From contig NZ_JAHLQN010000001.1 of assembly GCF_018919205.1 (NCBI RefSeq), positions 1,240,001-1,304,000 on the forward strand: 64,000 nt of DNA, in the 5' to 3' direction. The first letter of the stretch is position 1, and every line of letters starts with the position of its first letter. The position numbers and the translations under genes are program-made. Under the pieces are notes generated by a model. That model made no database searches. It was given only the letters and a program-made list of their open reading frames with translations, and was not told the DNA's origin. Source of the DNA: Dysosmobacter acutus (GTDB lineage: Bacteria > Bacillota > Clostridia > Oscillospirales > Oscillospiraceae). Of this stretch, positions 32,121-51,900 are shown piece after piece.

Positions 32121-32211
32121 AGGTTCCTCCCACGTCTGGGAGGCGGCGCGCCTTTATCCATGGGCCTCCTGTGTTATTTTCCTTCAACGGTTCTATACGC
32201 TCGGGATGGTG

Positions 32212-32601
32212 TCATCCCCTCTCAAACATCGGGCAATGCAAAATCTGCACCGCCTCTTTCCCCTCTCTCCGGCAGCGGCGCACCGTCCAGCCGGGCACGT
32301 CCCGGAACATCGCCCCGATCGTCCACGGGCAGCCGTGGCCCTGCATATCCGGCACCGCGTGGATGCAGTCCCAGCAGGGGCTTTCGCCGGGCGGGTGGTA
32401 GGCGTCGTTGCAGCGCGTCTCCAGCTTGCCCTGAGCGCGCAGATCCTTACGGATTGCGCTGATGTCCAGGCCCAGCCGCTTGCGCCAGTTCCGGACGGTG
32501 GCGATGGAGACATGCACCTCGTCCGCCACCTCCCGGGCCATCTTCCCCTGCAGCGTCAGCTCCCGGATACGATCCACCTCATGGCGCTCAAGTGCTTTCA
32601 T
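32212..32601 (-). CDS. Phage HTH protein with Cys-rich tail
   Basis: The 129-residue protein has an N-terminal helix-turn-helix (IRELTLQGKMAREVADEVHV then SIATVRNWRKRLGL). A C-terminal part contains C-W-D-C and further Cys at 103-126. It might regulate late expression, but that is a guess. Its ATG at 32601 overlaps the helicase stop. 90 bases of non-coding DNA follow. Confidence 0.7.
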   Translation of the reverse strand: MKALERHEVDRIRELTLQGKMAREVADEVHVSIATVRNWRKRLGLDISAIRKDLRAQGKLETRCNDAYHPPGESPCWDCIHAVPDMQGHGCPWTIGAMFRDVPGWTVRRCRREGKEAVQILHCPMFERG

Positions 32602-33934
32602 GGCTTGTCTCCCACGGGTCATTCCCATCCGGCGGAAGCTCCACGATCTGCTGGACACACTCCCCGTTCTCCCAGCCGTAGTGTTTTTGCCCCAAGACGC
32701 CGTCCAGGCCGGAAAACCGGCGGCAGTCTTCCAAAAAGGTGAGCCCCACCGTTTTCCTGGCTCCAAACTGCCGGTTCTTCAAAATGCTCAGCCGGGCGGT
32801 ATACCCGGACTGCTCCGCCGCCGCCTCCGGCAGCCGCTCGATGGCAAAGGCGTTATCCGCCCGGTTCACGATATCTCCGCTTCCGCCCACATCGTCGGCA
32901 GCCAATGCTTTCCCCTCGCTTTTCCTGGGATGGGCCACCAGATGCACATGGCAGCTGTGGCGCTTGGCAAACTCGCTCAGCCGCCCCACAAAGGCGGACT
33001 GGGCCCGGTAATAGTCGCTGTCACTGCCCTGTCGAAAGCGCATGGTCATGGCATTGTCCACCAAAAACACCTTGCAGCCATAGCGCAGATTGGCATAGTC
33101 CATCATGCTCAGGACGCTCCCCTCGTCGTGGGCGCTGGCAATCTCCAGGTCATACAAAAAGTACCGGCCCCGCCACCACTCGTCGATGCGGCGGCGCTTC
33201 ATGGCGTCCACCGCATAATCCGTCCTGCCTGTCACGGGGTCGGTGAGCGCGGTCAGGTTGGCGCTCCCCGCCGCCTGGACCAGCGTCCAGCGCTTGAAGA
33301 GCTTCTTGGGCAGCTCCCCGGAGTAGGCGAACACCCGCTCTCCCTGGTCGATGGCCTCCAGCAGGAGCTGACTCAAAAGGGTGGACTTCCCCTCCCCCCG
33401 GCGGCCGGTCCACACCGAGAGCTCCCCCTCCCCAAAGCCGCCGATGGCCCCGTCCAGGGTGGATATCCCGGAGACGGCCACCGCCCGGCGGCCCCCCTCC
33501 TCCACATCCACGTCCGAGAGGTCGATGAGCCCATAGGCCGGCAGCTCCACCGCGTCCATCGGAAGCGACTCCAGCGCCTCCGTACCGTGCCGGGACTTGA
33601 GTTCCGCCAGGGAGGCGCAGCCGCGGAAGGACTGCCCCGGCGGCACCCACACCGGCTTTCCCAACGCGGCCGAGCGCAGCTCCCCGGCAAGGGCCTTCCG
33701 CGCCTTCTCCTCCGCCACCGCCACAAAGAGACAGTCGAATTGGTTCAAAAAGGGCCGGCAGCGCTTCAGGTCCTCCGGCCCCCTGCCCGGCAGGAAGCAC
33801 ACGGCGTTGATCCCCTGGGCGTACACATCCTCCGGCGACGCGCAGACCCACAGCGTCCCATCGTACCGTGGGTTCAGGAACGCCGGGTCAAAGAGGAGAA
33901 CCTCCCCAGCCGCAGCCAGCTCTCTATCCGTCAA
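32588..33934 (-). CDS. Phage DnaB-like replicative helicase
   Basis: The 448-residue protein has a N-terminal Toprim-like region (about 15-130) and a RecA-fold helicase domain. Walker A is GRRGEGKST near 177-185 and Walker B is VFLVDNA near 278. VHLVAHPRKSEGK is the DnaB motif 3 region. A TTG at 33934 after AAGGAGG is taken as the start, overlapping the initiator gene by 11 bases. It should unwind the phage replication fork. Confidence 0.88.
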   Translation of the reverse strand: MTDRELAAAGEVLLFDPAFLNPRYDGTLWVCASPEDVYAQGINAVCFLPGRGPEDLKRCRPFLNQFDCLFVAVAEEKARKALAGELRSAALGKPVWVPPGQSFRGCASLAELKSRHGTEALESLPMDAVELPAYGLIDLSDVDVEEGGRRAVAVSGISTLDGAIGGFGEGELSVWTGRRGEGKSTLLSQLLLEAIDQGERVFAYSGELPKKLFKRWTLVQAAGSANLTALTDPVTGRTDYAVDAMKRRRIDEWWRGRYFLYDLEIASAHDEGSVLSMMDYANLRYGCKVFLVDNAMTMRFRQGSDSDYYRAQSAFVGRLSEFAKRHSCHVHLVAHPRKSEGKALAADDVGGSGDIVNRADNAFAIERLPEAAAEQSGYTARLSILKNRQFGARKTVGLTFLEDCRRFSGLDGVLGQKHYGWENGECVQQIVELPPDGNDPWETSHEST

Positions 33935-34508
33935 CGCTCCAGTCCTCCTTCCCCTCCGCCCCGGCCCTCCTGTGGGCCCAGTTGCGCACCGCCGCCCGCC
34001 AATCCTTCATGGGGTTCCCGTTGGAGAGCTTCCAGCCCTGGGCGGCGTAATAGTCCACAAAACGCTCCGCCTCTATGCCGTACTGGGCGCAATAGGCTTT
34101 GGCCTCCTCCGCAGTGGGCGGGGAAAACAGGGGTTTCTTTTTACCCCCTTTAGGGGGTTTTTCTTTGGGGGTTAGAGAGATAGGTACAGGGGGTGTGGGG
34201 GGAGAGGAAAGAGGGAAAGGGGTGTCCCAACTTGTCCCAAGTTGTCCCGGCTTGTCCCAACTTGTCCCGACTTGTCCCCACCTTTGTTCCCGTTTTCTTT
34301 CCCGCTCCCGCTCCCTGCTTTTCGCATCCTTGTCCATCTGTGCCTTCAGAACCAAAAATACTGTCTTCTCGTTCCCACCGCCCTCCGCCGCGCCTCCGCC
34401 GCTGCCGTAAACCAGCAGCGACCTCAGCAACCGGCCTCGTTCGGCCTCTCCAAGAGCCAGGATGGCCTCCACACAGATTATGGGAATCTTGATGTACTCC
34501 ATGGACAC
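33924..34508 (-). CDS. Phage replication initiator-like protein
   Basis: The 194-residue protein starts with a short helical region (LRSLLVYGSGG, LKAQMDKDAKSRE). A charged linker and a Pro-rich stretch follow, then a C-terminal DnaD-like segment AEEAKAYCAQYGIEAERFVD and GNPMKDWRAAVRNWAHR. Six 10-bp DNA repeats lie inside the linker-coding region, as in lambda O, where the origin is within the initiator gene. The helicase follows at once. The initiator role is inferred from gene order and repeats. Confidence 0.7.
   Translation of the reverse strand: MSMEYIKIPIICVEAILALGEAERGRLLRSLLVYGSGGGAAEGGGNEKTVFLVLKAQMDKDAKSRERERERKREQRWGQVGTSWDKPGQLGTSWDTPFPLSSPPTPPVPISLTPKEKPPKGGKKKPLFSPPTAEEAKAYCAQYGIEAERFVDYYAAQGWKLSNGNPMKDWRAAVRNWAHRRAGAEGKEDWSVDG
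34223..34282 (-). repeat. Six 10-bp iterons inside the initiator gene
   Basis: Six successive copies of TGTCCCNRCT (top strand) run with exact 10-bp period, one helical turn each. On the coding strand they read GGGACAAGTY. A G/T-rich tract with TTTAGGGGGTTTTTC lies beside them at about 34150-34175. The arrangement resembles a phage origin. Confidence 0.65.
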
Positions 34509-34511
34509 ACC

Positions 34512-34934
34512 TCAAAAGGGCAGCTCGGATTCGTCCCCATCCAGCACCACAAAGCCCTCCCCAGCGGACTCCATCCGCTCTGTCAGGGCGGCGGCGGGAG
34601 ACGGCGCGGCGGGGCCTGTCCACACGAAATCCGCGGCAAGGTCCGTATAGGATTTTCCGTTATACTCCCGCCGGTCGATCCGGCCGGCGACAAGGAACGC
34701 ATCCCCCTTACGCAGTGAGGCAACGGCAGAGGCGCCCGGGCCGTCCCACGCCTTGACCGTCAAAAATGCCGCCGTCCCATCCTTGCGGCCAAACGCCTTG
34801 ACGGAAACCGTGCCATAGGCCTTGCCGGACTTCGTCGTCCGCCGTTCCCCGTCTGAAACGGCTTTCCCCGCCACCAGGGCGGTCTCCACGGGGGAGCCGT
34901 CCTTTGCGTACTCCGTGATCCCTTTGATATACAT
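34512..34934 (-). CDS. ssb: Single-stranded DNA-binding protein
   Basis: The 140-residue protein has an OB-fold pattern (MYIKGITEYAKDG, SVKAFGRKDGTAAFLTVKAW, GRIDRREYNGKS). It ends in the acidic SSB tip DESELPF, which recruits DNA-repair partners. It lies in the recombination/replication block. GGGAGGGCGGA supports the ATG at 34934. Confidence 0.88.
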   Translation of the reverse strand: MYIKGITEYAKDGSPVETALVAGKAVSDGERRTTKSGKAYGTVSVKAFGRKDGTAAFLTVKAWDGPGASAVASLRKGDAFLVAGRIDRREYNGKSYTDLAADFVWTGPAAPSPAAALTERMESAGEGFVVLDGDESELPF

Positions 34935-34935
34935 C

Positions 34936-35658
34936 TCAATCCGCCCTCCCCTGGTCCATTTCCCGGAGCAGGGCGTCAAACTCCCCGGTTTTGATCGTGC
35001 TGGCGCTTGTGTAGCCGTGGGCGCCCAGCAGCGCTTTGGCCTCCTGCTTGGTGAGGCCATGGCGGCCGGCGGCGGCATAGAAGAATTTCACCTGCTGGGG
35101 CGTGATGGGGGCCTCCGGGTCCTTCTGGTTGAAGTAGGCCCCCGCCTCTTCCCCATCGCTTTCAATGTCCTGCGTAAAGCAGTCGGACATGCACCCAAGG
35201 GACAGCGCCGCAGACACCAGGGCCCGCTTCTGGGCCATTTTCAGGGCGGAGTTGGCCCCGTCATAGGGCGACTGGTTCCCTGTGCGCCCCTCCCGGGTAT
35301 TGCCGCTGCCGTAGGAGCTGGTGATGATATACTCCGTGCCATCCACGATCTTCACCAGGTCGCAGCGGACCAGGAAATAGAAAAACCCGTTCTCCAAATC
35401 CTCGATCCTGGATTCCAGCCGGTAGCGCTGGCACAGGCCGTAGCTGACGGCCACTTTCTCAGCGCCGGATTTGAACAAAGTCGGGTACTTGGTCATGGCC
35501 TCCCCGTTTTTCTTCCGGATCATGCCAAAATCCACGCCCCGGCGCAGCGTGGCCGGGGCACAGCCGTAGACGGAGATCAGATAATCCCCGGTGCGGGGCT
35601 TCTTTTCCACCGACATGGGGGCGGCGTCATAGTGGTACAATGTCAGTTCATTGCTCAT
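34936..35658 (-). CDS. Phage DNA-repair/annealing candidate
   Basis: The 240-residue protein has the pattern LFKSGAEKVAVSYGL then GFFYFLVRCDLVKI then NSALKMAQKRALVSAALSL and CFTQDIES. This pattern is shared by a family of phage proteins near exonuclease and SSB genes, some of which are Rad52/Sak-type annealing proteins. I cannot prove the activity. Its position between a PD-(D/E)XK nuclease and an SSB supports a recombinase role. It overlaps the nuclease gene. Confidence 0.55.
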   Translation of the reverse strand: MSNELTLYHYDAAPMSVEKKPRTGDYLISVYGCAPATLRRGVDFGMIRKKNGEAMTKYPTLFKSGAEKVAVSYGLCQRYRLESRIEDLENGFFYFLVRCDLVKIVDGTEYIITSSYGSGNTREGRTGNQSPYDGANSALKMAQKRALVSAALSLGCMSDCFTQDIESDGEEAGAYFNQKDPEAPITPQQVKFFYAAAGRHGLTKQEAKALLGAHGYTSASTIKTGEFDALLREMDQGRAD

Positions 35659-36236
35659 TTTTTCTTCTTCCTTTCTGTGGCGGCGTGGAGGAACAAGCAG
35701 GCGTCCAGCAGCTGCTCGTCCGGCGCCGCCTCCCGCAGCTCATAGGTCCCATCGGCGCAGAGCCTGAGCCCATAGAGCACCTCCGGCGCAAGCTCCGGCC
35801 TCCACCGGCGCAGCAGCCGGGCATAGCCCGTCAGCTGGGCCCGGAGGGCGGCGCTGTGCAGCTGCCCGGTCTTGATATCCAGGATGCACCGCCGCCCGTC
35901 ATAGAGCGTCCCGCAGCGGTCCGGCGTACCGGCAAGGCCAAGGGCCGCATCCCCAATGGGGGATTCGATCAGGTCCCAGTCCGGGCGGTAATCCTTCAAA
36001 AAGAGCCGGTAGGCGGCAAGGTACCCGGCAAGCTCCGGCCGCTCCTCCGCCTCCTCGCCGTAGTCGATCAGGGCGCAGGCCCCATGGATGGCCGTCCCCC
36101 GCTCGGCGGCAAGCCGGGCCAGCCAGGGCCTGTTTGATTGGTAGTCGCAGCTCAAAAAGCGGCAGACCTCCGTGACGGAGGGGAGGCGCTTCCCGTCCAG
36201 GGTGTAGGTATGGGCGGCTTCGTCAAAGGCCAGCAT
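35655..36236 (-). CDS. PD-(D/E)XK exonuclease-like protein
   Basis: The 193-residue protein has the RecB-type nuclease core: YTLDGKRLPSVTEV, GTAIHGACALIDYG, then GTPDRCGTLYDGRRCILDIK. The D, D-x-K residues bind metal and cut DNA. It should resect phage DNA ends. The ATG at 36236 follows GGGGAGGATG; an upstream start at 36257 is less likely. Confidence 0.8.
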   Translation of the reverse strand: MLAFDEAAHTYTLDGKRLPSVTEVCRFLSCDYQSNRPWLARLAAERGTAIHGACALIDYGEEAEERPELAGYLAAYRLFLKDYRPDWDLIESPIGDAALGLAGTPDRCGTLYDGRRCILDIKTGQLHSAALRAQLTGYARLLRRWRPELAPEVLYGLRLCADGTYELREAAPDEQLLDACLFLHAATERKKKK

Positions 36237-36528
36237 GGCGCATCCTCCCCTCTGCAATGTCTGTGAGGGAATTCCCCTCGATCACGCTGTCTATGTACTG
36301 AAGCTCCTCCTCCCGGAAGGGCGCAAGGGCCTCCCGGAACCGGGTAAGGGCCTTTCCCGCGCAAGCCGGGCACAGCTCGCCGGGCAGTATCTCACTGTCC
36401 GGCATCGCCGAGGCGCAGAGCACGCAGCGGCACTCCGGCTCGTAACCGCCTCCGCCGCAGTAGGGGCATGTCCCCTCGTAGCACTCCTCTTGTTCAAAAG
36501 TGGCTCCGCAATCGCAGATGTAACGCAT
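36223..36528 (-). CDS. Small phage zinc-ribbon protein
   Basis: The 101-residue protein starts YICDCGATFEQEE and has further Cys pairs in TCPYCGG, ECRCVLC and LCPACAG. A helical tail follows. It probably binds two zinc ions. No function is known. Confidence 0.65.
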   Translation of the reverse strand: MRYICDCGATFEQEECYEGTCPYCGGGGYEPECRCVLCASAMPDSEILPGELCPACAGKALTRFREALAPFREEELQYIDSVIEGNSLTDIAEGRMRHAGL

Positions 36529-36597
36529 GGCCTTTCCTCCTCTCTTGCGGCTGCGCTTGCGCGCTCCGCCGCGTTTTCCCGTGGCCGGCCCTCTCCC

Positions 36598-36792
36598 CTA
36601 CTCCCAGTCGTGGGTCTCGCATAGGGCCGTATACAGCTGCTCAGAAGCGCTCAGGCCGGTGAGGCCGGCGTTTGCGTGGATGGTCAGGGCAAGGGAGGCT
36701 AAGATGGCAAAGATCACAAACGCGATCAGCTGTGTCTCCCGGCGGCGCTGCCGCCGCTGCTCCCGGGTAAAACAGTTTCTTTCAAATTTCAT
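36598..36792 (-). CDS. Small phage membrane protein
   Basis: This 64-residue peptide has a very basic start (about ten Arg/Lys) and a single hydrophobic segment IAFVIFAILASLALTI. GGAGAGAGCG supports the ATG at 36792. The function is unknown. Confidence 0.55.
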   Translation of the reverse strand: MKFERNCFTREQRRQRRRETQLIAFVIFAILASLALTIHANAGLTGLSASEQLYTALCETHDWE

Positions 36793-36803
36793 CGCTCTCT
36801 CCA

Positions 36804-37004
36804 TTATTCAGGGTTCTTCTGTTTGAAGTGTTCGCATGTATCGTAGTCTTTCCTCAACTTCAACCTTGGGAAGCAGCAGTGCCCAGAGGCAAATGGCTTC
36901 CCGTCTTGCCGATAGTGCTGATAGTAGTGCTTGCAGTTGACGCACAACGGAAGTTCCGGTGTAAGGGACCAGTAGCAGAGTTCTCTACGCTTGCTGACAT
37001 TCAT
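36804..37004 (-). CDS. Small phage Cys-rich protein
   Basis: The 66-residue protein has spaced cysteines (CVNCKHYY, CCFPR, CEHF) that could bind zinc. It starts at 37004 with GGAGGCAATGCA upstream. It is the first gene after the early leftward promoter, so it may be an early regulator. Confidence 0.65.
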   Translation of the reverse strand: MNVSKRRELCYWSLTPELPLCVNCKHYYQHYRQDGKPFASGHCCFPRLKLRKDYDTCEHFKQKNPE

Positions 37005-37032
37005 TGCATTGCCTCCAAATCCATGATATAGT

Positions 37033-37116
37033 GGAACTAACTGTTCCTGACAGCATATGTATGGGAACAATTCGTTCCTATGCTCTCAGTATATAGGAAC
37101 AATTCGTTCCTGTCAA
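37033..37116 (-). promoter_or_regulatory. Early leftward promoter with three operators
   Basis: On the minus strand TTGACA (top 37111-37116), 17 bases, TATACT (top 37088-37093). GGAACAATTCGTTCC lies exactly between them at 37096-37110 and again at 37064-37078. A variant, GGAACTAACTGTTCC, lies at 37033-37047. Centres are about 31-32 bp apart (three turns). They are the probable binding sites of the repressor encoded at 37135. Confidence 0.85.
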
Positions 37117-37134
37117 GATATCTTGGAGGGTTTT

Positions 37135-37353
37135 ATGGAATTTGCAAAAAGGCTAAAACAATATCGCAATGAAATGGGTTATACGCAGGAAGAAATGGCA
37201 ATGGTTCTTGGCATAACAACAAGGGGATATCGAAATTACGAGCTTGGAACCCGGGAGCCAAATCTTTCATTCTTAGTATCACTCGCTGATAAACTAAATG
37301 TGTCTATGGACAATTTAATCGGTCGCGAATTCCCAAAAGAGGCAAACCAATGA
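37135..37353 (+). CDS. XRE-type repressor (72 aa)
   Basis: It is a single helix-turn-helix domain, with RLKQYRNEMGYTQEEMAMVL then ITTRGYRNYELGTREP. No peptidase domain is present, so it would not respond to RecA. TTGGAGGG precedes the ATG. It is divergent from the early operon with three palindromic operators between. It overlaps the next gene by ATGA. Confidence 0.88.
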   Translation: MEFAKRLKQYRNEMGYTQEEMAMVLGITTRGYRNYELGTREPNLSFLVSLADKLNVSMDNLIGREFPKEANQ

Positions 37354-37565
37354 GCGGCCAGCGGGAATTGGAAGAAGGCATTGAACGCATCCGGATTGAG
37401 GCTTCAGAACAGGAAAGACAGAAGCAGATTGACCGCAAATGCGCTGAAAGCGCTGCAAACAAGAGAGAGCAATATAAGCTCGCCATATTTTCTTCGCTTT
37501 TTGCGGGACTGTTCGGCGGTTTGTTTGGTGCGCTCTTTGCATGGCTTTTCTCGTCTCTTCATTGA
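37350..37565 (+). CDS. Small phage membrane protein with glycine zipper
   Basis: This 71-residue protein has an acidic/basic helical first half and a C-terminal membrane segment, SSLFAGLFGGLFGALFAWLF, with GxxxG-type spacing. It is translated with the repressor (ATGA overlap). It may be a superinfection-exclusion or anti-holin-like protein; that is speculation. Confidence 0.6.
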   Translation: MSGQRELEEGIERIRIEASEQERQKQIDRKCAESAANKREQYKLAIFSSLFAGLFGGLFGALFAWLFSSLH

Positions 37566-37759
37566 CGCCCCGTATCCTCTCTCAATGTTCGTTGATGGAC
37601 TCCAAACAGATCCTCCAGTGTATCCCAGAGTTCAAAGTCTCCATTTCTTTCCCCTGATTCGATAAATCTGTAGTAGCGCTCTGTAACCCCTAACTTGGTT
37701 GCCGCCTGGGCTTGTGTCATACCCTTGGCCTTCCGGGCGGCTTTCAGGTTTTCCCGCAT
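37559..37759 (-). CDS. XRE/Cro-like HTH protein
   Basis: The 66-residue protein has the XRE pattern KAARKAKGMTQAQAATKLGV and TERYYRFIESGER. GGGAGGTGAGCGG precedes it. It probably acts as a Cro-like regulator in the leftward transcript from the second immunity promoter. Confidence 0.8.
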   Translation of the reverse strand: MRENLKAARKAKGMTQAQAATKLGVTERYYRFIESGERNGDFELWDTLEDLFGVHQRTLREDTGRQ

Positions 37760-37965
37760 CCGCTCACCTCCCCCTTGGAAAGGCAGCGGGCCAGGGTTGC
37801 CACGCTGATGTAGCCGGCGGAATTAAAGGGGACAAACCTGGAAACCGTGCGGTAATTCCGTCCCAGGAACTCGCACACGTCCTTCTTGTTCAGCACCTCT
37901 TTGCCGGGAAACCGGGCGATGATGCGCTCTAAGTTGTCCCGGTAAAATTCCGATTCTCTTGGCAT
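37744..37965 (-). CDS. Small HTH/excisionase-like protein
   Basis: The 73-residue protein has the pattern EVLNKKDVCEFLGRNYRTVS, a MerR/excisionase-type helix-turn-helix, and then a wing-like FNSAGYISVA. It may be an excisionase or a regulator. AGAAGGAGTGATCCC precedes it, and it overlaps the Cro-like gene. Confidence 0.7.
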   Translation of the reverse strand: MPRESEFYRDNLERIIARFPGKEVLNKKDVCEFLGRNYRTVSRFVPFNSAGYISVATLARCLSKGEVSGCGKT

Positions 37966-38059
37966 GGGATCACTCCTTCTCTATGAAATTGGCCGTTCTG
38001 CTTGGTTGCGGATTGGCGATCAATGTGATAAAATGGCGGCGAAAGGGAGGTGCTGCTTC

Positions 38060-38539
38060 ATGATTACGGAAACGGTTTTGATTTCTGCCATCACAGCCTG
38101 CGCAGGGCTTGGAGGTGCCGCGATAGGCGCGTATGCATCCATCAGAATTGCAAGGGAGCAGAGCAGGGCTCAGCTTAGCCGGTGCGTTTTGGAGGGTACA
38201 TACAACGCCCGCCGCGCATCTTACCAAAAGGTGTTTGACGCAGAAACGGCTTTCACCGCCAGCAGGACGGCGGAAACCGCAACGTCACTTTTGCGGGCTG
38301 TCAAGGAGGCCTGCGTGGTGGCCTCTCCAAACGCTGCGGCCAGAATGATGCTTCTGACAGAAGCCGCCACCTCGGGAAGCTACTTGGACTTCGACGCCGT
38401 GCGGGCCGACATGCTGATTGTGATGCAGCGTGATCTTGCCACATTCACAGCGCCTAAAATCGAACAATATGGCTGGTCAGATTCCACTTCCAAGCCCGAT
38501 GGCAAGGACAAAGGGGAAAATGCAGGCCAGCCAGAATAA
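38060..38539 (+). CDS. Phage membrane-anchored protein, unknown
   Basis: The 159-residue protein starts with a membrane segment (TVLISAITACAGLGGAAIGA) and continues as a soluble helical domain. GGGAGGTGCTGCTTC supports the ATG at 38060. It lies on the opposite strand to the surrounding early genes, and its 3' end overlaps a 43-aa minus-strand gene by 63 bases. No family is recognised. Confidence 0.5.
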   Translation: MITETVLISAITACAGLGGAAIGAYASIRIAREQSRAQLSRCVLEGTYNARRASYQKVFDAETAFTASRTAETATSLLRAVKEACVVASPNAAARMMLLTEAATSGSYLDFDAVRADMLIVMQRDLATFTAPKIEQYGWSDSTSKPDGKDKGENAGQPE

Positions 38540-38608
38540 CAGCGTCCATTTGACGGCCCACCGGAGAGCGGCTTTAAACAGCTGCTCTTCTTTTTTGTCT
38601 CTGAACAT
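38477..38608 (-). CDS. Tiny phage membrane protein (43 aa)
   Basis: The 43-residue peptide begins MFRDKKEEQLFKAALRW and ends in one membrane segment (LLFWLACIFPFVLAIGLG). AAAGGAGGTACGT precedes the ATG, an excellent ribosome site. It lies in the leftward transcript between two HTH genes. Confidence 0.65.
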   Translation of the reverse strand: MFRDKKEEQLFKAALRWAVKWTLLFWLACIFPFVLAIGLGSGI

Positions 38609-38637
38609 ACGTACCTCCTTTCACGCGCTGGTGAGGG

Positions 38638-38844
38638 TTAGCTGGCAAACTCGTCGCCGTCCGCGGCGAATAAGTACTCAAACTTTTTCCCGAAATACTG
38701 GCAGTAGGCACGGCACTCCTGCGGCGTAAACCTGCCAGACCGGGCTTTGCTTTGGTACGCCGTCCGGCTGACGCCGATGATTTTTGCCATGTCTTCCTCT
38801 GTCAGCTTGTGGATCGCTTTCTGCCCGAGCAAATTAGGGTACAT
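38638..38844 (-). CDS. Cro-like HTH protein
   Basis: This 68-residue protein has the pattern KLTEEDMAKIIGVSRTAYQ, a helix-turn-helix with the SRTAYQSKARSG recognition region. GAAAGGAGAAAAAAC precedes the start at 38844. It is the first gene of the leftward transcript opposite the S24 repressor and so has the position of cro. Confidence 0.82.
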   Translation of the reverse strand: MYPNLLGQKAIHKLTEEDMAKIIGVSRTAYQSKARSGRFTPQECRAYCQYFGKKFEYLFAADGDEFAS

Positions 38845-38898
38845 TGTTTTTTCTCCTTTCTTGCGAAAAACTTTGCATTGCGATAAGATAGAAGAGCC

Positions 38899-39143
38899 CA
38901 AAGCGGCAGGAAATGAGAGCAAGATGCCGGAGTGCCCGGTCCGCCCTTCTTGAAGAGATTGGGAGAGCCTGAAGGAAAGGAGGACAGCAGATGAAGGTAT
39001 TGTTTACAATCGCCGTAGATGGACATACCGTCTACGTGATGGACGATGGTTCTCTGGTCTGTGCAAGCCCCGATGTGCTGGAACTCTTCCAGTAGCAAAG
39101 GGAAGGGCGCTCCCGCGTCTTGCTCTCATTTCCTGCTGCTTTG
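38899..39143. repeat. 39-bp inverted repeat around a tiny ORF
   Basis: The left arm (38899-38937) and the right arm (39105-39143) are complementary at 35 of 39 positions; the first 29 positions differ at only two. The shared core is GCAGGAAATGAGAGCAAGA. 167 bases lie between and hold a 34-codon ORF with its own ribosome site. Leftward RNA from the 39173 promoter would fold into one long hairpin. Confidence 0.88.
38991..39095 (+). CDS. Tiny phage protein (34 aa) inside an inverted repeat
   Basis: The 34-codon frame reads MKVLFTIAVDGHTVYVMDDG and on to DVLELFQ. AAAGGAGGACAGCAG precedes the ATG. A possible rightward promoter TTGCGA-17-TAAGAT lies at 38861-38889. It would be translated from a loop held by the flanking inverted repeat. 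No family is recognised. Confidence 0.55.
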   Translation: MKVLFTIAVDGHTVYVMDDGSLVCASPDVLELFQ

Positions 39144-39172
39144 ATGATCGCGAAACGCAAACCCATGAGCAA

Positions 39173-39270
39173 ATAATAGTCTCATTTTGCGAACTTGTCA
39201 AGATGGTTTTTCTAAAAAGTTTTCAAAGTGCAAACTTTGCATTGACATTTGCAATTTGCAAACTTATAAT
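39173..39270. promoter_or_regulatory. Divergent immunity promoters with operators
   Basis: Leftward: TTGACA (top 39196-39201), 17 bases, TATTAT (top 39173-39178). Rightward: TTGACA (39242-39247), 17 bases, TATAAT (39265-39270). Operators of the TGCAAANTTTGCA type: 39229-39241 (perfect) and 39248-39262, the latter between the -35 and -10. A relative, TTTTGCGAAC, lies in the leftward spacer. AACTTTGCATTG recurs at 38869-38880 before the Cro-like gene. Confidence 0.85.
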
Positions 39271-39290
39271 ATAAGCAAGGAGGCGATTTG

Positions 39291-40073
39291 ATGTCATTCG
39301 GAGAACGGCTGAAAGAATATCGGGAAGCGCGCGGATATACGCAGGAGCAGCTTGCGGAAATCATCGGCGTTGCTAAAACGACAATAACCGGGTATGAGCG
39401 CGGAAATCGTGCGCCGGATGTGAAGAAAATCAAGCGGCTGGCGAAAGCGCTTGGAATTACGGGTGATGAACTGTTAGACACAGGGCTTGGACAAAACGAA
39501 ACCCCGCTCTATTCGAGCGGGGCAATGAAGATTGCAAAGGACTATGACGCTTTGGACGTTTGGGGAAAACAGGCCCTGCGGGAGCTGGCGGATACCGAAC
39601 GCCAACGTATGGAGGCGGAAGCCAGGTTCCTGGACGATACGGAGGAGCCGGTTGCCAAGGCCCCCAAGGTCATCCCCCTGTACCTCTTTCCTGCCGCTGC
39701 GGGCTATGCCGCTCCGGCGTTTGGGACGGACTTTATCCCGTTGGCCCTTGAAAAAAACGACCCGCAGGGGGCCGATTTCGCCGTCAGGATACAGGGCGAC
39801 TCTATGGAGCCGGTTATCACAGACGGTTCCAAGGTCTTCTGCAATCACGACCCCCTCAGTGATGGGGACATCGGCATTTTCTCCGTGGACGGCGGCGAGA
39901 TCGTCTGCAAGCAGTACCACTATGATTCGGCGTTGGGAATGACCTATTTGTTCTCTATCAACCGGGATCGCTCTGACGCCGATGTGGTGATTACCTCCTC
40001 CGGCGGACAAAATCTTGTCTGCCTTGGCCGGGTCATCGTGAAAGGCCGCTATCCTCTGCCCGGCGAGTGGTAA
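39291..40073 (+). CDS. LexA-like phage repressor (XRE plus S24 peptidase)
   Basis: The 260-residue CI-type repressor has an N-terminal XRE domain (ERLKEYREARGYTQEQLAEI, TTITGYERGN). A C-terminal S24 autoprotease domain follows, with probable cleavage at Ala-Gly in FPAAAGYA, Ser in IQGDSMEP and Lys in GEIVCKQY. RecA-stimulated self-cleavage would induce the prophage. GCAAGGAGGCG lies before the ATG at 39291. It has a consensus promoter covered by its own operators. Confidence 0.94.
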   Translation: MSFGERLKEYREARGYTQEQLAEIIGVAKTTITGYERGNRAPDVKKIKRLAKALGITGDELLDTGLGQNETPLYSSGAMKIAKDYDALDVWGKQALRELADTERQRMEAEARFLDDTEEPVAKAPKVIPLYLFPAAAGYAAPAFGTDFIPLALEKNDPQGADFAVRIQGDSMEPVITDGSKVFCNHDPLSDGDIGIFSVDGGEIVCKQYHYDSALGMTYLFSINRDRSDADVVITSSGGQNLVCLGRVIVKGRYPLPGEW

Positions 40074-40214
40074 GGCGCAAGGCGTTGGAGAGCGGCGACG
40101 AAATAACCCTAATTTTAAAGGGGTCGAATTCGACCAGTTTAAAAGTCACGCTGGAGCAGTGGGGCCCGGTGCTGGGCTGGTGGCCGAAATGAGCACAAAT
40201 GACCGACACATACC

Positions 40215-40243
40215 TTGACAAGACCTTGAAAACTGCATATAAT
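40215..40243 (+). promoter_or_regulatory. Promoter of the type III antitoxin RNA
   Basis: TTGACA and TATAAT are both exact consensus, with a 17-base spacer. This is as strong as the tRNA promoter. Confidence 0.92.
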
Positions 40244-40249
40244 GAGGGT

Positions 40250-40402
40250 GCAAGGGAAACCTTGATGATGTGGCCGCAGAGCACGGCCACCGCGGGAAAA
40301 AGAAAGCTCAATTGATGATTTGCTCGTAGAGCGCGAGCAGCATAATCAAAAGAAAGCTCAATCGATGTGAAGCCCTCTGTAGAAATACAGAGGGCTTTTT
40401 TT
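40250..40402 (+). ncRNA. Repeat-containing antitoxin RNA of a type III toxin-antitoxin system
   Basis: The transcript would run from a consensus promoter to a terminator, about 150 nt, with no credible ORF. It holds about 2.5 degenerate repeats of 46-50 nt. AAAAGAAAGCTCAAT occurs at 40297 and 40348 with an exact 50-bp offset. A weaker first copy begins GAAACC at 40256. Each repeat has a hairpin: GTGGCCG / CGGCCAC (40270-40290) and TGCTCG / CGAGCA (40321-40339). A-rich joints AAAAAG match the sites at which ToxN-type enzymes process their antitoxins. A GNRA hairpin CAAGG-GAAA-CCTTG opens the RNA. Confidence 0.82.
40371..40402 (+). terminator. Terminator between antitoxin RNA and toxin gene
   Basis: AGCCCTCTGTA-GAAA-TACAGAGGGCT is followed by seven T, 12 bases before the toxin ATG. 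In type III loci such a terminator sets the antitoxin:toxin ratio by partial read-through. Confidence 0.93.
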
Positions 40403-40413
40403 AAGGAGAAGCT

Positions 40414-40827
40414 ATGCGCCTGATTATTCTGTCAGAAAAATTCTATGATGAATATGGGCAGTGTCCTGAGATTTTGCAGAAAAAGACGCGGCCCTATGTG
40501 TGCCTGGAGGTAAAGATTCGTTCCAGCACCTTTGCTATCCCATTCCGGCATCATATTCGACATAAGCACGCATTTTTCACTTGTGGAGAGTGTGGACTGG
40601 ACTATACGAAAGCTGTCGTTATCCGGGACAAAAGCTACATATCGGCGGAGTGCCCAAGAGTTGAGCAGGCGGAGTTCAATGCGCTGAAAGGCATGGATAG
40701 CCGGGTCAGAAAGGGTCTGGCCGATTATATAGCGCTGTACAAAAAGGCGTCACGGTACAAAGAGAATCGGCACTATGCGAACATTTTGCAATGCAGTGCG
40801 CTGCAGTATTTTGAAGAGTACATCTGA
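40414..40827 (+). CDS. Type III toxin, TenpN/CptN-like endoribonuclease
   Basis: The 137-residue protein has the conserved pattern of TenpN/CptN (ToxN superfamily) toxins. It starts with MRLIILSEKFYDEYGQCPEI and RPYVCLEVKI. The FAIPFRHHIRHKHAF core and GLDYTKAVVI follow, with a C-terminal ending similar to CSALQYFEEYI. These enzymes cleave RNA and are held inactive by their repeat RNA. AAGGAGAAGCT precedes the ATG. The promoter, tandem repeats and terminator directly upstream complete the locus. In a prophage it could act in abortive infection against other phages or in prophage maintenance. Confidence 0.88.
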   Translation: MRLIILSEKFYDEYGQCPEILQKKTRPYVCLEVKIRSSTFAIPFRHHIRHKHAFFTCGECGLDYTKAVVIRDKSYISAECPRVEQAEFNALKGMDSRVRKGLADYIALYKKASRYKENRHYANILQCSALQYFEEYI

Positions 40828-40848
40828 CGACCAACAAAGGAGCGCAAC

Positions 40849-40902
40849 ATGAAACTGTCCAAAGCTAAAAAACCGCTGTCTGCCAACTGGAACATCATGT
40901 GA
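40849..40902 (+). CDS. Very short ORF (17 aa), possible leader or remnant
   Basis: AAAGGAGCGCAAC precedes a 17-codon frame, MKLSKAKKPLSANWNIM. It may be the left-over 5' end of a lost gene. Evidence is only the ribosome site. Confidence 0.25.
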   Translation: MKLSKAKKPLSANWNIM

Positions 40903-40935
40903 TAGTGAAAAGTTGTAAATAAGTGCCGCGACCCG

Positions 40936-40970
40936 CCTTGCATCTCAAACCAATAAATCGAGATGCAAGG
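40936..40970 (+). promoter_or_regulatory. Hairpin overlapping a ribosome binding site
   Basis: CCTTGCATCTC (40936-40946) pairs with GAGATGCAAGG (40960-40970). The 3' arm contains the first bases of the Shine-Dalgarno AAGGAGAG of the 40982 gene, so folding would limit its translation. Confidence 0.6.
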
Positions 40971-40981
40971 AGAGAACATCC

Positions 40982-41167
40982 ATGGAAGAAGAACAACTGT
41001 TTGCATTTATGCAGGCAACGGAGCAAGCCGCTTCCCGGGGTTGCTGCCAGGATGGTAAGAAGCATCCCTTCCGCTGTCCACTGTGCGGCGGGATTGCAAC
41101 CGTATGTGCAGGGCGCGGGCGCTCAGGAAGCATGTGCAGGCACTGTAAAATTATGGCGTTGAAATAA
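40982..41167 (+). CDS. Small zinc-ribbon phage protein
   Basis: The 61-residue protein has Cys pairs CPLCGG and CRHCK. AAGGAGAG lies 8 bases before ATG inside a hairpin. It is of unknown function. Confidence 0.6.
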   Translation: MEEEQLFAFMQATEQAASRGCCQDGKKHPFRCPLCGGIATVCAGRGRSGSMCRHCKIMALK

Positions 41168-41168
41168 G

Positions 41169-41211
41169 CGGAAAAAATAAAAACCGCCCCGGTGCTGGAA
41201 CACCGGAGCGG
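41169..41211 (-). terminator. Leftward terminator upstream of the integrase
   Basis: The stem CCGCCCCGGTG / CACCGGAGCGG with one mismatch runs, on the minus strand, into TTTTTATTTTTT. It fits a leftward transcript, yet no minus-strand gene lies to its right for 6 kb. Confidence 0.75.
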
Positions 41212-41300
41212 CATACCACACCCCGCAGAACGACCAAGAACCACAAGGGGGCAGTCTCATTATACCTGCCTCCTTCACAAAACGCAAGGAGGTTTATTTT

Positions 41301-42410
41301 ATGGCAAATGCAAAAAAAGCAAAGTACTATCAGAGGCCGGACGGGCTGTTCGAGAGCATCCGCACCATTGGCGGCAAGCGGGTGGCCTTCCGGGCCAAGA
41401 CATGCAGGGAGGTGGACCGCAAAATTCTGGAATACCGGGAGGAACAGGCCGTAGGCCGAACCTACGCCCAAGTCCTGGAGGACTGGTGGCGCCAGAAAGA
41501 ACCGGAGTGGGCACCCTCCAGCGCCAGCGCCTACCTCAGGGCCTTCCGCCGGGTGAAGGAGGCCCTTGGGCCGCTCCGCATTCGGGAAATGCGGCCATTG
41601 GATGCTGTGCGCTACTTGAGCGCAATGAAGGACCATGGATACCGTTCCGGTACCGTGGGGTTGGATCTATCCGTCCTGAAGATGTCCTGCAGCTGGGCCG
41701 TGATCCACGGAGACGTAGATATTAATCCTTGCGCGGAGGTAAGGCAGCCCAAGGGGCTCTATGCAAAAAAGCGGATGCCATTGACGGACGAACAAATCGC
41801 CGCCGTGACCAGCTGCCGCACCGGCGAATGGTGGCTTCTTGGACTAATGCTGCTCTACACCGGCTGCCGCCGCGGCGAGCTGCTGGCCCTGCGCTACGAG
41901 GACATCGACCGCAAGGCCAAGCGTATCCACATCCGCAAGAAGCTCTCTTACGTCAACGGCAACATTCCCGTCGTGGAGGATCACACCAAGTCGGAGGCCG
42001 GGATGCGGGACATCCTGCTGCTGCCGATCCTGGACGACGCGATTCCCCGGGACAGGATCGGCCTCATCTTCCACGAGCCGGACGGTTCGCCTCTGAAGAT
42101 GGCCACCATGGCCCGAATCTGGAAACAATACTGCCGTCAACTTGGATTCGTGGAATATGAAGAGCTGCCTTGCAGGGACGGAACGCTCCGCAGGAAGGAA
42201 ACTTTCCCGGTCACGCCACACTGCTTCCGCCACACCTTCGCCACCATCTGCTTCGAGGCCGGCATCGACCCAAAAAGCACGGCGGCCATGCTGGGACACG
42301 CCGACGAGGGGTTGACGCTCCAGCTCTACACTCACCTGAGCGCCCAGCACAAGGCCTCTGAGTCCGAAAAGCTTGCCGCCTATGTGGAGCGGGTTGAGGC
42401 CGGCTCGTAA
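41301..42410 (+). CDS. int: Tyrosine integrase
   Basis: The 369-residue phage integrase has a short arm-binding start and a SAM-like core-binding domain (about 55-155), then the catalytic domain. Catalytic residues are Arg in TGCRRGELLAL, His and Arg in TPHCFRHTFAT, His in LGHADEGLTL and Tyr in QLYTHL. CAAGGAGGTTTATTTT precedes the ATG. Phage attP sites usually lie next to int. Here the 3' side holds the Microviridae fragment and the right inversion breakpoint, so the former attL may be near. Confidence 0.95.
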   Translation: MANAKKAKYYQRPDGLFESIRTIGGKRVAFRAKTCREVDRKILEYREEQAVGRTYAQVLEDWWRQKEPEWAPSSASAYLRAFRRVKEALGPLRIREMRPLDAVRYLSAMKDHGYRSGTVGLDLSVLKMSCSWAVIHGDVDINPCAEVRQPKGLYAKKRMPLTDEQIAAVTSCRTGEWWLLGLMLLYTGCRRGELLALRYEDIDRKAKRIHIRKKLSYVNGNIPVVEDHTKSEAGMRDILLLPILDDAIPRDRIGLIFHEPDGSPLKMATMARIWKQYCRQLGFVEYEELPCRDGTLRRKETFPVTPHCFRHTFATICFEAGIDPKSTAAMLGHADEGLTLQLYTHLSAQHKASESEKLAAYVERVEAGS

Positions 42411-42560
42411 CTGTGTATTTTCTGTGTAGATTGTTGATGCAAAGCTTTGCGGGAATTTACACGAATCCGTTTCGGGCAAATCGCCTGCGCCCATTGGTAT
42501 CGCTGCATTTCCGTGCAGAGCGTTGCAAGAGTGTGCAGATTGCGGCGGAGAGGGTTTAAT
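42411..42560 (+). other. Candidate att region after int
   Basis: The 150 bases between int and the VP2 fragment hold small inverted repeats (GCAAAGCTTTGC; CTGCA...TGCAG) and GTGTA repeats that could be integrase arm sites. No core sequence can be defined without the other attachment site. Confidence 0.35.
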
Positions 42561-43163
42561 ATGTCCAATACTGCTCATCAGCGTGAGGTAAAGGATTTAC
42601 AAGCTGCCGGTTTGAATCCTGTCTTGTCAGCTATGGGAGGTAACGGCGCCGCCGTTACCTCCGGAGCTACAGCTTCTGGTGTTACTTCTTCCGGTGATAA
42701 AGGTCAGGTCGATACATCTGCCAATTCAGCTATTGTTTCTCTGCTCGCTTCAATGCTGAATGCGCAGAATCAGTTGGAGATCAGCCGTAATAACGCCCAG
42801 GCTAATCTTGCTGTAGCCGACAAGTATAATGCTATGTCAGAGATCGTTGCTGGTATTAACGCCAATGCTACCCTCGGAGCTGCTGGCATTCATGCTGGTG
42901 CCACTCGCGATGCAGCTGCCATGTCCTCAGCTGCGACCAGGTATGCGTCGGATAATGCCCGTGCTGCCTCTCAGTATTCATCTGATACTCAGAAGTATCT
43001 TACTGAAAAGTATCCTTCTTCTAAGTATCAGTTTGGCTCTAAAGTTCTGAATGATATTTTAGGTGAAAATGCTCTTTCTGATATTGGTCAATCTGCTAAG
43101 AGCTTGTGGAATCGCATTACTGGTAATACCCGTATGGATACGAGTTCAGCTGGAAGAAGGTGA
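42561..43163 (+). pseudogene. Microviridae VP2 (DNA pilot/minor capsid) fragment
   Basis: The 200-residue frame begins with SNTAHQREVKDLQAAGLNPV, the hallmark of gokushovirus VP2 proteins. A Gly/Ala/Ser-rich stretch and a long helical region follow (SMLNAQNQLEISRNNAQANL). In intact VP2 proteins this motif is preceded by about 50 or more residues with a hydrophobic Gly-rich segment, which are missing here. Codon use is T-rich at third positions, unlike the GC-rich neighbours. No VP1 or VP4 gene is seen, so it is a piece of an ssDNA phage captured beside the integrase. Confidence 0.85.
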
Positions 43164-43167
43164 TTTC

Positions 43168-43329
43168 TTGGATGTTCTTTTAGGTTTGCTCATTGTCTTC
43201 TTGGTTCTTTGTCCCGGTGTTTTTCTTTGGATTTTTGGGATTCGTTTGTTGTTGTTGGCTTCAAAGGCTTTGAAGATTTATATTAGAGAGCATACTTATT
43301 ATGATGATGAACAGCAGGGACAGGAATAG
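43168..43329 (+). CDS. Small membrane protein after VP2
   Basis: A 53-codon frame starts at TTG five bases after the VP2 stop, with GAAGAAGGTG upstream. It has one long hydrophobic segment (LLGLLIVFLVLCPGVFLWIF) and a charged tail. It shares the T-rich composition of the VP2 fragment and may come from the same small phage. Confidence 0.4.
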   Translation: MDVLLGLLIVFLVLCPGVFLWIFGIRLLLLASKALKIYIREHTYYDDEQQGQE

Positions 43330-43501
43330 CTCTGCTATTACTGTCTTTGCTGTTGCAGCCAAGCGTGAGCGCGGCCAGCGATGACGAGAAAGTTGATCCG
43401 CACAGTTACCCTCTTGATGTAACTGTGCGGAGTGACACCTAACAACATGCTTTTGCAAGTTTTGGTGGAGCTATTACTGTTTGTACTTTGTAAAGCGTGG
43501 G
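43330..43501. other. Non-coding junction zone with 13-bp hairpin
   Basis: TCCGCACAGTTAC / GTAACTGTGCGGA (43397-43431) is a perfect stem with a 9-base loop. GCTATTACTGT occurs twice (43334-43344, 43470-43480). On the reverse strand a frame is open from 43504 to about 43338 and would extend the secreted-protein gene at 30626 if the segment is inverted. On the plus strand a signal-peptide-like frame (ALLLLSLLLQPSVSAA) exists but has no start codon. Confidence 0.5.
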
Positions 43502-43858
43502 TATGAGTGGAATAAGTATGGCGGAAGAGGAATCACGATGTGCGATGAGTGGCGGAATAGTTTTGAAACATTCCAAACATGGGCGCTTGCGAACGGCTAT
43601 CAAGACCATCTCTCCATAGACAGAATTGATGTAAATGGAAACTATTGCCCTGAAAATTGTAGATGGGCAACGGTTTATGAGCAAAACAACAATAAGCGCA
43701 CAAGTAGATACCTTTCTTACAATGGCGAAACCAAGACCATCAGGGAATTTGCGGATAAATATGGGCTGGCTTATTCTTGCCTTTACGAACGGTTAAGGCT
43801 TGGATGGAACGTGGAGGATGCCCTACTTACACCGCCAAAGAGGAGGGATTTGGCATGA
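43481..43858 (+). pseudogene. 3' half of the split HNH/AP2-type gene
   Basis: From TAT at 43502 the frame reads EWNKYGGRGITMCDEW, then SIDRIDVNGNYCPENCRWAT and a C-terminal DNA-binding tail of repeat type (GETKTIREFADKYGLAY). It has no proper start; the preceding codons come from another sequence. The full-size relative at 44044 shows what the missing start should look like. It ends in ATGA with the next gene, so the operon is otherwise intact. Confidence 0.78.
43502..43504. other. Right breakpoint of the proposed inversion
   Basis: TAT here matches ATA at 30771-30773. To the left lies the Microviridae/secreted-gene sequence, to the right the 3' half of the HNH gene. Confidence 0.6.
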
Positions 43859-44043: not shown

Positions 44044-44466
44044 ATGAACGTCAACAAAACAAGACTATATGTCGTTTGGAAAAATATGAAAGCACGTTGT
44101 TACAATCGCAATAGGCCTGATTATAAATATTATGGGGCAAAAGGCATTACTGTCTGCGATGAATGGCAGACATATGGAAACTTTGAGATATGGGCTAAGC
44201 AAAACGGATATGACGATAATTTGACTATTGATAGAATTGATGTTCTGCGGGGATATGAGCCGAGTAATTGCCGTTGGATTCCATTTTCAGAGCAACGAGA
44301 AAACACAACACAGGCAAGAAGAGTTACCATCAACGGAAAAACACAGACCCTAAAAGCGTGGTGTATTGAGTACGGGATTAGCTACAACATGGTTATCATG
44401 CGCGTGCATAGAGGGGTTGATATTGTTTCTGCCTTATTGATGCCAAGCAGGAAAGGGTCGAAATGA
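44044..44466 (+). CDS. HNH/AP2-type homing-endonuclease-like protein
   Basis: The 140-residue protein has the core RCYNRNRPDYKYYGAKGIT, VCDEW and LTIDRIDVLRGYEPSNCRWI, plus a C-terminal repeat tail with TQTLKAWCIEYGIS. It is the same family as the split gene just upstream but lacks the N-terminal zinc domain. Such proteins bind and may nick DNA; many are free-standing homing endonucleases. AGGAGGAATAG precedes it. Confidence 0.8.
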   Translation: MNVNKTRLYVVWKNMKARCYNRNRPDYKYYGAKGITVCDEWQTYGNFEIWAKQNGYDDNLTIDRIDVLRGYEPSNCRWIPFSEQRENTTQARRVTINGKTQTLKAWCIEYGISYNMVIMRVHRGVDIVSALLMPSRKGSK

Positions 44467-48904: not shown

Positions 48905-51900
48905 CTATGCATACGGGTTCTTCTTCCAGCCCTTGTTGATGATGCTCCAAAGGTCCGCCTTCTGTTCGCGGGAAAACTCCTGAGCGTCCAGGTAGGCCTG
49001 GGCCTCCGCCTGGGAGACGCCGCCGTTGCCGTCGGCGTCTAACCCATCCTGCATGGCCGCATATTCCTCCACGCTCAGCCCGGCGGCCGCCGCCTGCTTT
49101 ACTTTCTCATAGCTCTTGCCGGATAGCATTTCTCCGTACCTCTGCCGCAGAGCGATGAAGTCCGCCGTGGAAATCCCTAAGTCCCGCTGGGCGTTTTGGG
49201 CGTTGAGGACCCACTCATCCACACTGTCCCTGCCCATCGCCTCCGCCTTTGCCGCCTGGTAGGCGTAGGCGCTGCAATCGCTCAGCAGCTTGGACTTTTG
49301 CTCGTCACTGGACTGCTTGTAAGCGTCGGCGCCCATCATCTGGCCCATCACCAGCAGGGCGGCGGAGCCACGGGTCCGCTGGAACTCCTGCCGCTGCTCA
49401 TAGGTGAGGGGGAGCTCTTTCCCATCTGCTTTGAGTTTGGAGGGCGCGGATTTGTCCGGGTAGAAGGATGTGTCGCCGGTCGCTTTCCGGACGGCTTCCA
49501 GTTCCTTGCTGACCTCTCCCTGCGTGTAGGTGTTGACCCCCACGGGGTTCAGCATGGCCTGGAACAGGTTGAAGCTCCGGCTGCCCTGATAGGTGCGGTC
49601 CCGTCCAAAGCCGTCCACGGAACCGGGCAGAGTCTCCCGCAGTCCGGGGACGCCGCTTTTTACGTTGTCGCGCAGGCGCTCCGCCAAGGTGTCTCCGGAA
49701 TAGGTGCTGCGGGGCCGGTCGTCCAGGCCCCGGGCGGCGGAGCGCATCAGGTTCGGCAGCGTGGAGGAAACCAGGGTGTTCATTGCCTCCTTGGCAAATA
49801 CCTCCTTGGGGTCCTGGTTGTAGCGCACGATATCCACTGCGGCGTTTCCGATGGACTGCATCACCGGCAGCTCCGCCGTCACATCCATAAAGGAATCTGA
49901 GGTTGCGTTCCAGGCGGTGACGATGGGGCTTGCCTCCGACTTGGCCATCTCCGTGCCCAGATTCATGAGCAGGTTCAGCGGTTCGATGGAGCTGAGGTCG
50001 ATCAGGGTGTCGCCGCTGCGCCACGCCGCGCCTTCTCCGGAGAGTGCCCTTTGGGCGGCGCTCAGGTTGAGCTGCGTCCCCGTAATCCCTTCCGCCTGGT
50101 TTAGTGCCCGCACGTCGGCGTCGTCCTCGTCGTCCGCCTGCCGCAAAAGCCCGGCCTGGGCAAGGAGCATAAACCCGTAGGCAATGGCGGTCCCGGTCAT
50201 GCCCCGGGCCAGGTTGGAGACTGCTTTGGCCTGCCTGGCGGCGTCCACATTGCCCCGGGCCGCCTGAGCCACCACACCCGCCAGCTCCAGCGTGCCGCGC
50301 ACGGCGTTCACGGGGCTGTACTCCAGGCCCCGGGACGCCAGATTGCCCGCCACCCTGGTAAAGGGGGCGATTACGTCTCCTGCACCGAAACTGTGAACGG
50401 TATGGCCGCCCACGGTTCTGCCGCTGTCTCCCACACCGATCATATTCAGCACGTCGCGGATGGTCTGGATACCTACAGACAGCTTGCTGTTGTCCTGGAA
50501 TGTGCGGTATTTTGCCAGCTCCTCCGCCTGCTTGGCGGCGTAGTCCTGATCTTCCGTCTTGATCCTGCCCTGGTCCACAAGGGCCTGGGTCCGCTCCGCA
50601 GTGGAGCGGGCGGCGCCCTTATAGAGCTCGTCGGTGGCGTTCAGCAGGTAAGCCTGGTTCCGTTCCAGGGCGGACAGCACCCGGTCCGCAAGGCTGCCGC
50701 CGGCCTTGAAGGTCCGGCTGCTGGCGGTGCCATAGCGGCTCTGCGCCCCATCCATATTGACGTCAAGAGTAATTTCCGCCGCTGCCATCTGCATGGCCTT
50801 GACCGCCGCCTCGCGGGATGCCCTGGAGAGGGTGCCCTGCTCAAATGCCACGCTGCGGGTCCCTGTGAGCTTGGAGAGCGCCATGTCCAATATGGCGGCG
50901 CCCCGCATGGCCGCCGCGTCGATGCCGTAGAAGGTGGTGTTGCCGGCGATGTTCTTTGCCGCCGTTTTGGGCGAGGAGAGCATGTTCAAAATCTGGATGG
51001 TCTTGAGCTTCTGCCCGGCATTGGCGGGTATGGCGTCCGTGGAGAGGGCGGAGGTGGAGGCATAGGCAAGGCTTTTGAGCTGGTCAAAGCTCATGCTGTC
51101 CAGGCTCGTGCCCGCGATCTTCCGGAGCAGTGTGCTCTGCTTCCCGGTCAGCCCATCCAATACGCCCCGCTGCCGGGCAACATCCAGGATCACATCCTTC
51201 AATGCGGCCGTGTCGCCGTTTTCCGTGGACTCGATCTGGTTGTTCCATTGGAGGATTTTCCGGAATACCTCCGTCTTCTTGTTCTGGGACAGCTTGCTTT
51301 TCTGAAGGTTGTCCCACGCCTCCGCCTCGCCCTCTATGCGGCCCTCCGTTCCTGACCGGCTCCACTTGCTCCAGGCCTGGGTCCCCTGGCCGCCGGCTGT
51401 GGCGTGTTCGCGCATGGTGGATATCCAGTCCGCATACTCCCCGGAGTCAATCTCCAAATTGACTGCCCGGCCCTCCAGCTCCCGGCGGATCAGCTCCGCC
51501 GCGTCGGTCTGGGGGGCGTTCCATGCGGTGGCGTCCTTCAGGCTCTCCACCAGCTCATGATAGGAGTTCTCATCCACGTCCCTGATAAAGCGCCGCTCCC
51601 CGTCCTGATACAGGTAAAGGGTGTCGTCCGCAAGGCTCATGGAGCGCCCCTCGGTCTGGCTTTCATAGCGGAAGAGCTTGGCGTAGTCCTCCCGGCTCAT
51701 GCCGGTGGCCTCGCCCTGATAGCGGTCATAGGGGAGGGAGTCCTGGAGGCGGCTGACCCGTTCCGTGCCCGCCATGCCCGGCGTGGTGAATCCGGCCCTT
51801 GCGCTGCCTAAGGAGTCGTCACGCCTTACTGCTCCTTCATCACCCTGCCCGTCCACGCCGGCAGAGGGATTGACAGAATCCGCCTCCTGTGCTATGGTAG

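Follow-up and report, generated by a model that had tools for sequence, protein, structure and literature searches.

A gokushovirus provirus split in two around a tailed prophage, with junctions suggestive of site-specific exchange

The locus described here is almost certainly a gokushovirus provirus in two separate pieces, with all its core genes retained. It lies in a 64,000-nucleotide stretch of the Dysosmobacter acutus chromosome (the window, meaning the whole stretch of DNA that was analysed) and runs on past its edge; extended coordinates below cover the window plus adjoining DNA, and chromosome positions equal extended positions + 1240000. In it the genomes of a single-stranded DNA virus and of a tailed phage (P below) are connected, apparently through site-specific exchange. 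We consider it fairly likely that the provirus was split by three conservative site-specific exchanges, with a serine recombinase acting in trans at a viral TA dinucleotide. The architecture is secure; the recombinase we infer.

Results and Discussion

Gene content and relation to Dulem virus 157

The ORF at 42561–43163 (+) encodes the 3′ part of the gokushovirus DNA pilot protein VP2, with codons from MSNTAHQREVKDL on, and contains the gokushovirus hallmark MSNTAHQREVKDLQAAGLNPV. It matches PHROG 5158 (E = 5e-67) as well as several families annotated as pilot protein for DNA ejection. Across all of its 200 aa it shares 96.5% identity with the VP2 of Dulem virus 157 (PP511559). When searched against proteins, it returned microviruses as all 40 of the best 40 of 555 records, and not dsDNA-phage or cellular proteins alone, which bears out the Microviridae origin proposed in the initial annotation, whose assignment to a Firmicutes host was also correct. 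The small membrane ORF that follows (53 aa, 43168–43329, +, best start 43168 and stop at 43329) is microviral too: Dulem 157 has an identical copy, and there is similarity to Dulem 136 and to related ORFs. Microviral DNA extends past it to 43503, through an origin-like hairpin with a CTTGAT loop (43397–43439, +), a 42-nt block that many microviruses conserve and that also appears in slot alignments, and through the intergenic slot. Comparison with circular microvirus genomes, which the initial annotation had recommended, aligned 42561–43503 (+) with Dulem 157 positions 1924–2866 at 93.5% DNA identity (blastn).

The remainder of the virus lies just past the window edge as a second piece of ~4.05 kb on the minus strand (extended 69275–73328, chromosome 1309275–1313328), 26 kb from the first and on the opposite strand. 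By blastn it corresponds to Dulem 157 from 1932 down to 1 and then from 5120 down to 2865. Placed end to end, the two pieces make one viral circle: on the Dulem 157 genome they overlap by 9 bp at one cut and by 2 bp at the other, and leave no gap. The second piece holds the VP2 N-terminal part, VP1, VP3, VP5, small ORFs and VP4. A PF02305 capsid search of the whole genome found one full-length VP1 (E = 3.5e-172), on the same contig and on the minus strand; both VP1 and VP4, suggested earlier as genes to look for elsewhere in the genome, are present within extended 69275–73328. The frames of VP1, VP3, VP4 and VP5 are open and encode proteins 90–96% identical to those of Dulem 157, and after end-to-end placement VP2, VP3, VP4 (Rep) and VP5 stand open in the usual gokushovirus order. 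The provirus measures ~4986 bp (943 + 4054 bp minus overlaps), within the ~4.5–5.5 kb of Gokushovirinae. Thus, what had been described as a captured fragment is in fact one end of a split provirus that keeps every core gene. The N-terminal part of VP2 is indeed absent at 42561, as first reported, but it is present beyond P, at extended 69275–69513; it seemed missing because P has apparently integrated into VP2, leaving the N-terminus on its far side.

Dulem virus 157, one species with two records (PP511559, PP511740), comes from lemur faeces and is represented by free circular genomes only, which carry no assignment to a bacterial host. It is the closest free virus, with 93.5% DNA identity for the VP2-side piece and 83–95% elsewhere, and differs in carrying an extra small hypothetical ORF (4252–4398) that is missing from the provirus. 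The second contig of the present genome (C2; L009, G000:C2, 5067 bp), which is small and replicon-like, was considered, on account of its size, as a free microvirus and rejected, since it shows no similarity.

The cut in VP2

The first cut lies within VP2, both halves of which meet foreign DNA at a common 9-bp sequence, ATGTCCAAT. This att core occupies 42561–42569 (+) at junction J1 (42560/42561), where the integrase side of P meets VP2, and recurs as the same 9 bp on the minus strand at junction J3 (extended 69274/69275), outside the window at extended 69275–69283. At J1 the core lies 150 bp from a tyrosine integrase gene of P (41301–42410, +; PF00589, 4e-18; PHROG_1 integrase, 1e-60), the dsDNA-phage integrase that the initial annotation had placed beside the fragment, and at J3 the foreign DNA adjoins terminase genes. 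P itself is a temperate dsDNA phage of 37.6 kb with PHROG matches for terminase, portal, tail and lysis genes; the part outside the inverted segment described below, with anti-repressor, holin, tail fibre, portal and terminase, spans 43504–64000 and continues to extended 69274. Next to its structural genes lies a 1650-aa ORF (48905–53857) that has no PHROG match and probably encodes a large virion-internal or tail protein.

Rejoining the two halves of VP2 restores a full-length open frame, and since an att core stands at each end of P, P sits in VP2. Very probably it was inserted there by its own integrase, which would have recombined attP with a secondary site, VP2. The far end of P carries a 16-mer, ATGTCCAATTTGTAAA, of which the genome has one further copy, upstream of htpG; we infer that this copy is the usual attB of P, here vacant, and it is because this better, 16-bp match is vacant that we read VP2 as secondary. 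The 16-mer was found in 0 of 60 congeneric genomes. Among relatives of the P integrase (30–55% identity) none adjoins VP2 or microviral DNA, and the att core is missing from the three closest; nothing thus indicates that P-like phages regularly target VP2.

The cut at the viral TA dinucleotide

The second cut falls at a TA dinucleotide upstream of VP4 (Dulem 157 positions 2865–2866) and accounts for three junctions. At J2 (43502–43503), close to where an inversion breakpoint had been suspected, viral DNA is followed by the C-terminal portion of an HNH endonuclease gene of a tailed phage (43502–43858, +), in frame after the TA. At J4 (extended 73326–73328) it adjoins the C-terminal portion of a large secreted host protein, and at J0 (30771–30773) the N-terminal portion of that protein leads into the N-terminal portion of the HNH gene (30772–31064, −). 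Once rejoined, the HNH gene is an open frame of 216 codons that aligns without a break to HNH proteins of Streptococcus phages, and the host gene, a secreted repeat protein whose signal peptide and N-terminal part lie at 30626–30773 (+) and whose remainder lies outside the window at extended 73329–78205, is an open frame of 1674 aa. An intact internal repeat of the secreted protein reads across the site, with zero bases inserted or lost at the TA, and a homologue in another congeneric genome aligns across it as well. TA stands at the crossover in all three parental sites, and J0, J2 and J4 are hybrid exactly at this dinucleotide. VP2, the host gene and the HNH gene thus all return in frame on rejoining of their flanks, with no base lost. 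With P in VP2 and the HNH gene joined to the virus at TA, the recombination between microvirus and dsDNA phage suggested in the initial annotation is borne out. A second HNH gene (44044–44466) stands almost beside the cut one (43481–43858) in P, and both belong to phrog_3377.

Misassemblies arise at repeats, and in this genome, assembled in 2 contigs, the sequences common to the joined partners measure only 2–9 bp. The junctions are known from the assembly alone, and a second genome carrying them was not found, as would be the case had microviral reads been misjoined to prophage and chromosome; such an error would, however, have had to give three genes back in frame across four junctions and to duplicate an att core beside int, and we regard it as very unlikely.

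In Dulem 157 and in the provirus alike the slot reads GTTTGTACTTTGTAAAGCGTGGG-TA-CCTACATAAGACAAGGTACACGC, and the pseudo-palindrome is identical in both; its left half (GTTTGTACTTTGTAAAGCGTGGG TA) occupies 43479–43503 (+) at J2. The dyad about the TA has 15 matches in 25, which ties it for second place among the 5120 viral positions, a value reached by only 4 of them, so that a random cut would hit such a centre with a chance below 0.1%. The crossover at a common 2-bp core with no duplication or loss, and the pseudo-palindromic half-sites of ~25 bp (15/25), are both features of attP-type sites. The attP sites of large serine integrases are pseudo-palindromic, with 25-bp half-sites about a central dinucleotide, and the attachment sites of Listeria phage A118 resemble the viral TA site in all three respects (PMC3783163). 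Unlike that of A118, the site here is carried by a virus that has no recombinase. A motif derived from both arms, TGTACYTTGTNNNNNGTRGGTA, fits both and has no other occurrence in 400 family genomes.

On balance, and judging from the form of the site, we attribute the TA exchanges to a serine recombinase acting in trans: a large serine recombinase from another resident element would have used the viral TA pseudo-palindrome as an attP-like site. The 3.16-Mb genome has 15 serine recombinase genes; large serine recombinases occur in two tandem clusters of three (G000:C1:1182274–1186472 and 1531742–1534989). Matching half-sites within 1.5 kb of the 15 were sought and none exceeded background, and a whole-genome scan for the viral-arm motif likewise gave background level only. 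The left half-site in the host gene resembles the left viral arm weakly, at 12 of 20 positions, a level that 0.6% of 2498 TA sites reach and that, with longer arms, 2–4% reach; no such likeness is seen between the HNH site and the viral arms. IS110-type recombinases, the other class with a 2-bp core that was considered, were discarded as candidates after a search that gave one sub-threshold hit and none above the curated cut-off.

With half-site likeness weak or absent and none of the 15 resident serine recombinases linked to the TA site, illegitimate end joining at a 2-bp microhomology stays a real rival, if a rather improbable one. The split provirus would then be real and its VP2 junctions integrase-made, but the TA junctions would stem from breaks within a single cell, with the common TA as microhomology and the dyad as a coincidence. 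The brevity of the common stretch, 2 bp, and the want of clear similarity at the HNH and host-gene sites accord with this. Against it, end joining would have had to lose or gain zero bases at three junctions, to use one viral dinucleotide in both exchanges, and to cut in the very middle of a dyad that is among the strongest in the virus. Far less probable still is insertion of the viral genome by the microvirus Rep, an HUH nickase, at its own nick site: the cut does lie inside the origin-bearing intergenic region, but the CTTGAT origin hairpin (at ~2760–2802) is some 60–100 nt away, and the second exchange, with the HNH gene at the same TA, would be left unexplained.

History of the locus

Relative to the rest of P, a 12.7-kb segment (30772–43503) is inverted; it comprises 11.8 kb of P (30772–42560), from the HNH N-terminus, on the minus strand at J0, to the integrase at J1, together with the viral DNA at 42561–43503. 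Chromosome, P circle and viral circle merged through at least two joining exchanges, and the observed junctions require a third, the inversion. One exchange, between VP2 and P, would be integrase-like, and two would have taken place at the viral TA, the partner being the host secreted-protein gene in one case and the HNH gene of P in the other, so that the whole was inserted and 12.7 kb flipped; the sequence fixes no order for these events, and a palindromic TA core would allow both orientations. Because the att sites of P are now inverted relative to each other, its integrase would invert rather than excise the DNA between them. From the anatomy of the locus neither element appears able to excise simply, and P and the split virus appear locked together; the split genome probably fails to form infectious icosahedral ssDNA virions. 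In the IMG/VR viral-contig scan zero matches were obtained for P attP, for J1 and for the intact viral TA site.

Relation to proviruses at dif

Escherichia enterogokushovirus prophages occupy dif and depend on XerC/XerD (Kirchberger and Ochman 2020, PMC7062461), and the Bacteroidetes proviruses BMV1–7, temperate microviruses that have dif-like flanks and lack an integrase, are believed to rely on a recombinase of the cell (Krupovic and Forterre 2011, PMC3091885). The present virus resembles the former in having no integrase of its own, in its gene order VP4-VP5-VP3-VP1-VP2 and in a cut that adjoins VP4, but differs in that dif is absent, the junction is a 2-bp TA, the target is a coding gene and the genome is split. 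It shares with BMV1–7 the lack of an integrase; these differ in virus group, host phylum and their dif-like flanks.

Closer to hand, the congeneric Oscillibacter sp. PC13 carries an apparently complete gokushovirus provirus (L010 11509–16350; G082:C26, NZ_FOXE01000003; L146) at the chromosomal dif right beside xer, with a VP1 73% identical to that of Dulem 157. It comes from the same genus and is opened in the same ori–VP4 slot as the split virus, but it is uninterrupted and lies at dif. The 28-bp dif ATTGAACAAAA-nnnnnn-TTTTGTTCAAT, or a close variant, lies within ~200 bp upstream of xer at 9 of the 10 loci of this gene that were recovered from the genus (L162–L171), among them that of the present genome. 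Four further Clostridia proviruses have dif-like palindromic flanks (dif-flanked set L146, L148, L149, L159, L160), and the ori–VP4 slot is dif-like in Dulem 136 (L136 ~2951–3000) and more weakly so in Dulem 146 (L137).

These Clostridia relatives between dif-like 28-mers, one of them congeneric and beside xer, and the use of the same ori–VP4 slot would fit an ordinary Xer/dif integration that was rearranged afterwards. We nevertheless hold that account to be very improbable: the present cut has no dif-like 11-6-11 palindrome, the Dulem 157 slot is also free of dif, and a 6-bp Xer overlap is excluded by junctions whose hybrid point is precisely TA. Moreover, the dif of this genome, beside xer, is intact and empty ~770 kb from the provirus, and the target is a coding gene. 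The virus stands at a non-dif site, unlike published microvirus proviruses, for which Xer/dif is used or presumed, and the locus hints at a second integration route for integrase-less viruses, at a site unlike dif, that can be tested. We tentatively suggest that some microviruses might carry, in the slot where relatives have dif, an attP-like site recognised by large serine recombinases that co-resident elements encode, and might enter by this borrowed integrase instead of by Xer. For a serine recombinase acting with a microvirus, a nested prophage of this kind or a microvirus in Oscillibacter, no published precedent was found in the open-access literature, which does not prove that none exists.

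Gokushoviruses rank with the most common phages of the gut, and their hosts are mostly unknown. Together with the PC13 provirus, the present locus links gokushoviruses, including a virus species known solely in free form from lemurs, to the Oscillibacter lineage, and the Oscillibacter-type dif-like sequences in Dulem 136 and Dulem 146 suggest a host for these uncultured viruses as well. A Clostridia MAG contig (L151, 5794–15603) was also seen to contain two identical gokushovirus genomes in a tandem arrangement with a period of 5173 bp, which may be either a tandem provirus or the assembly of a circular genome.
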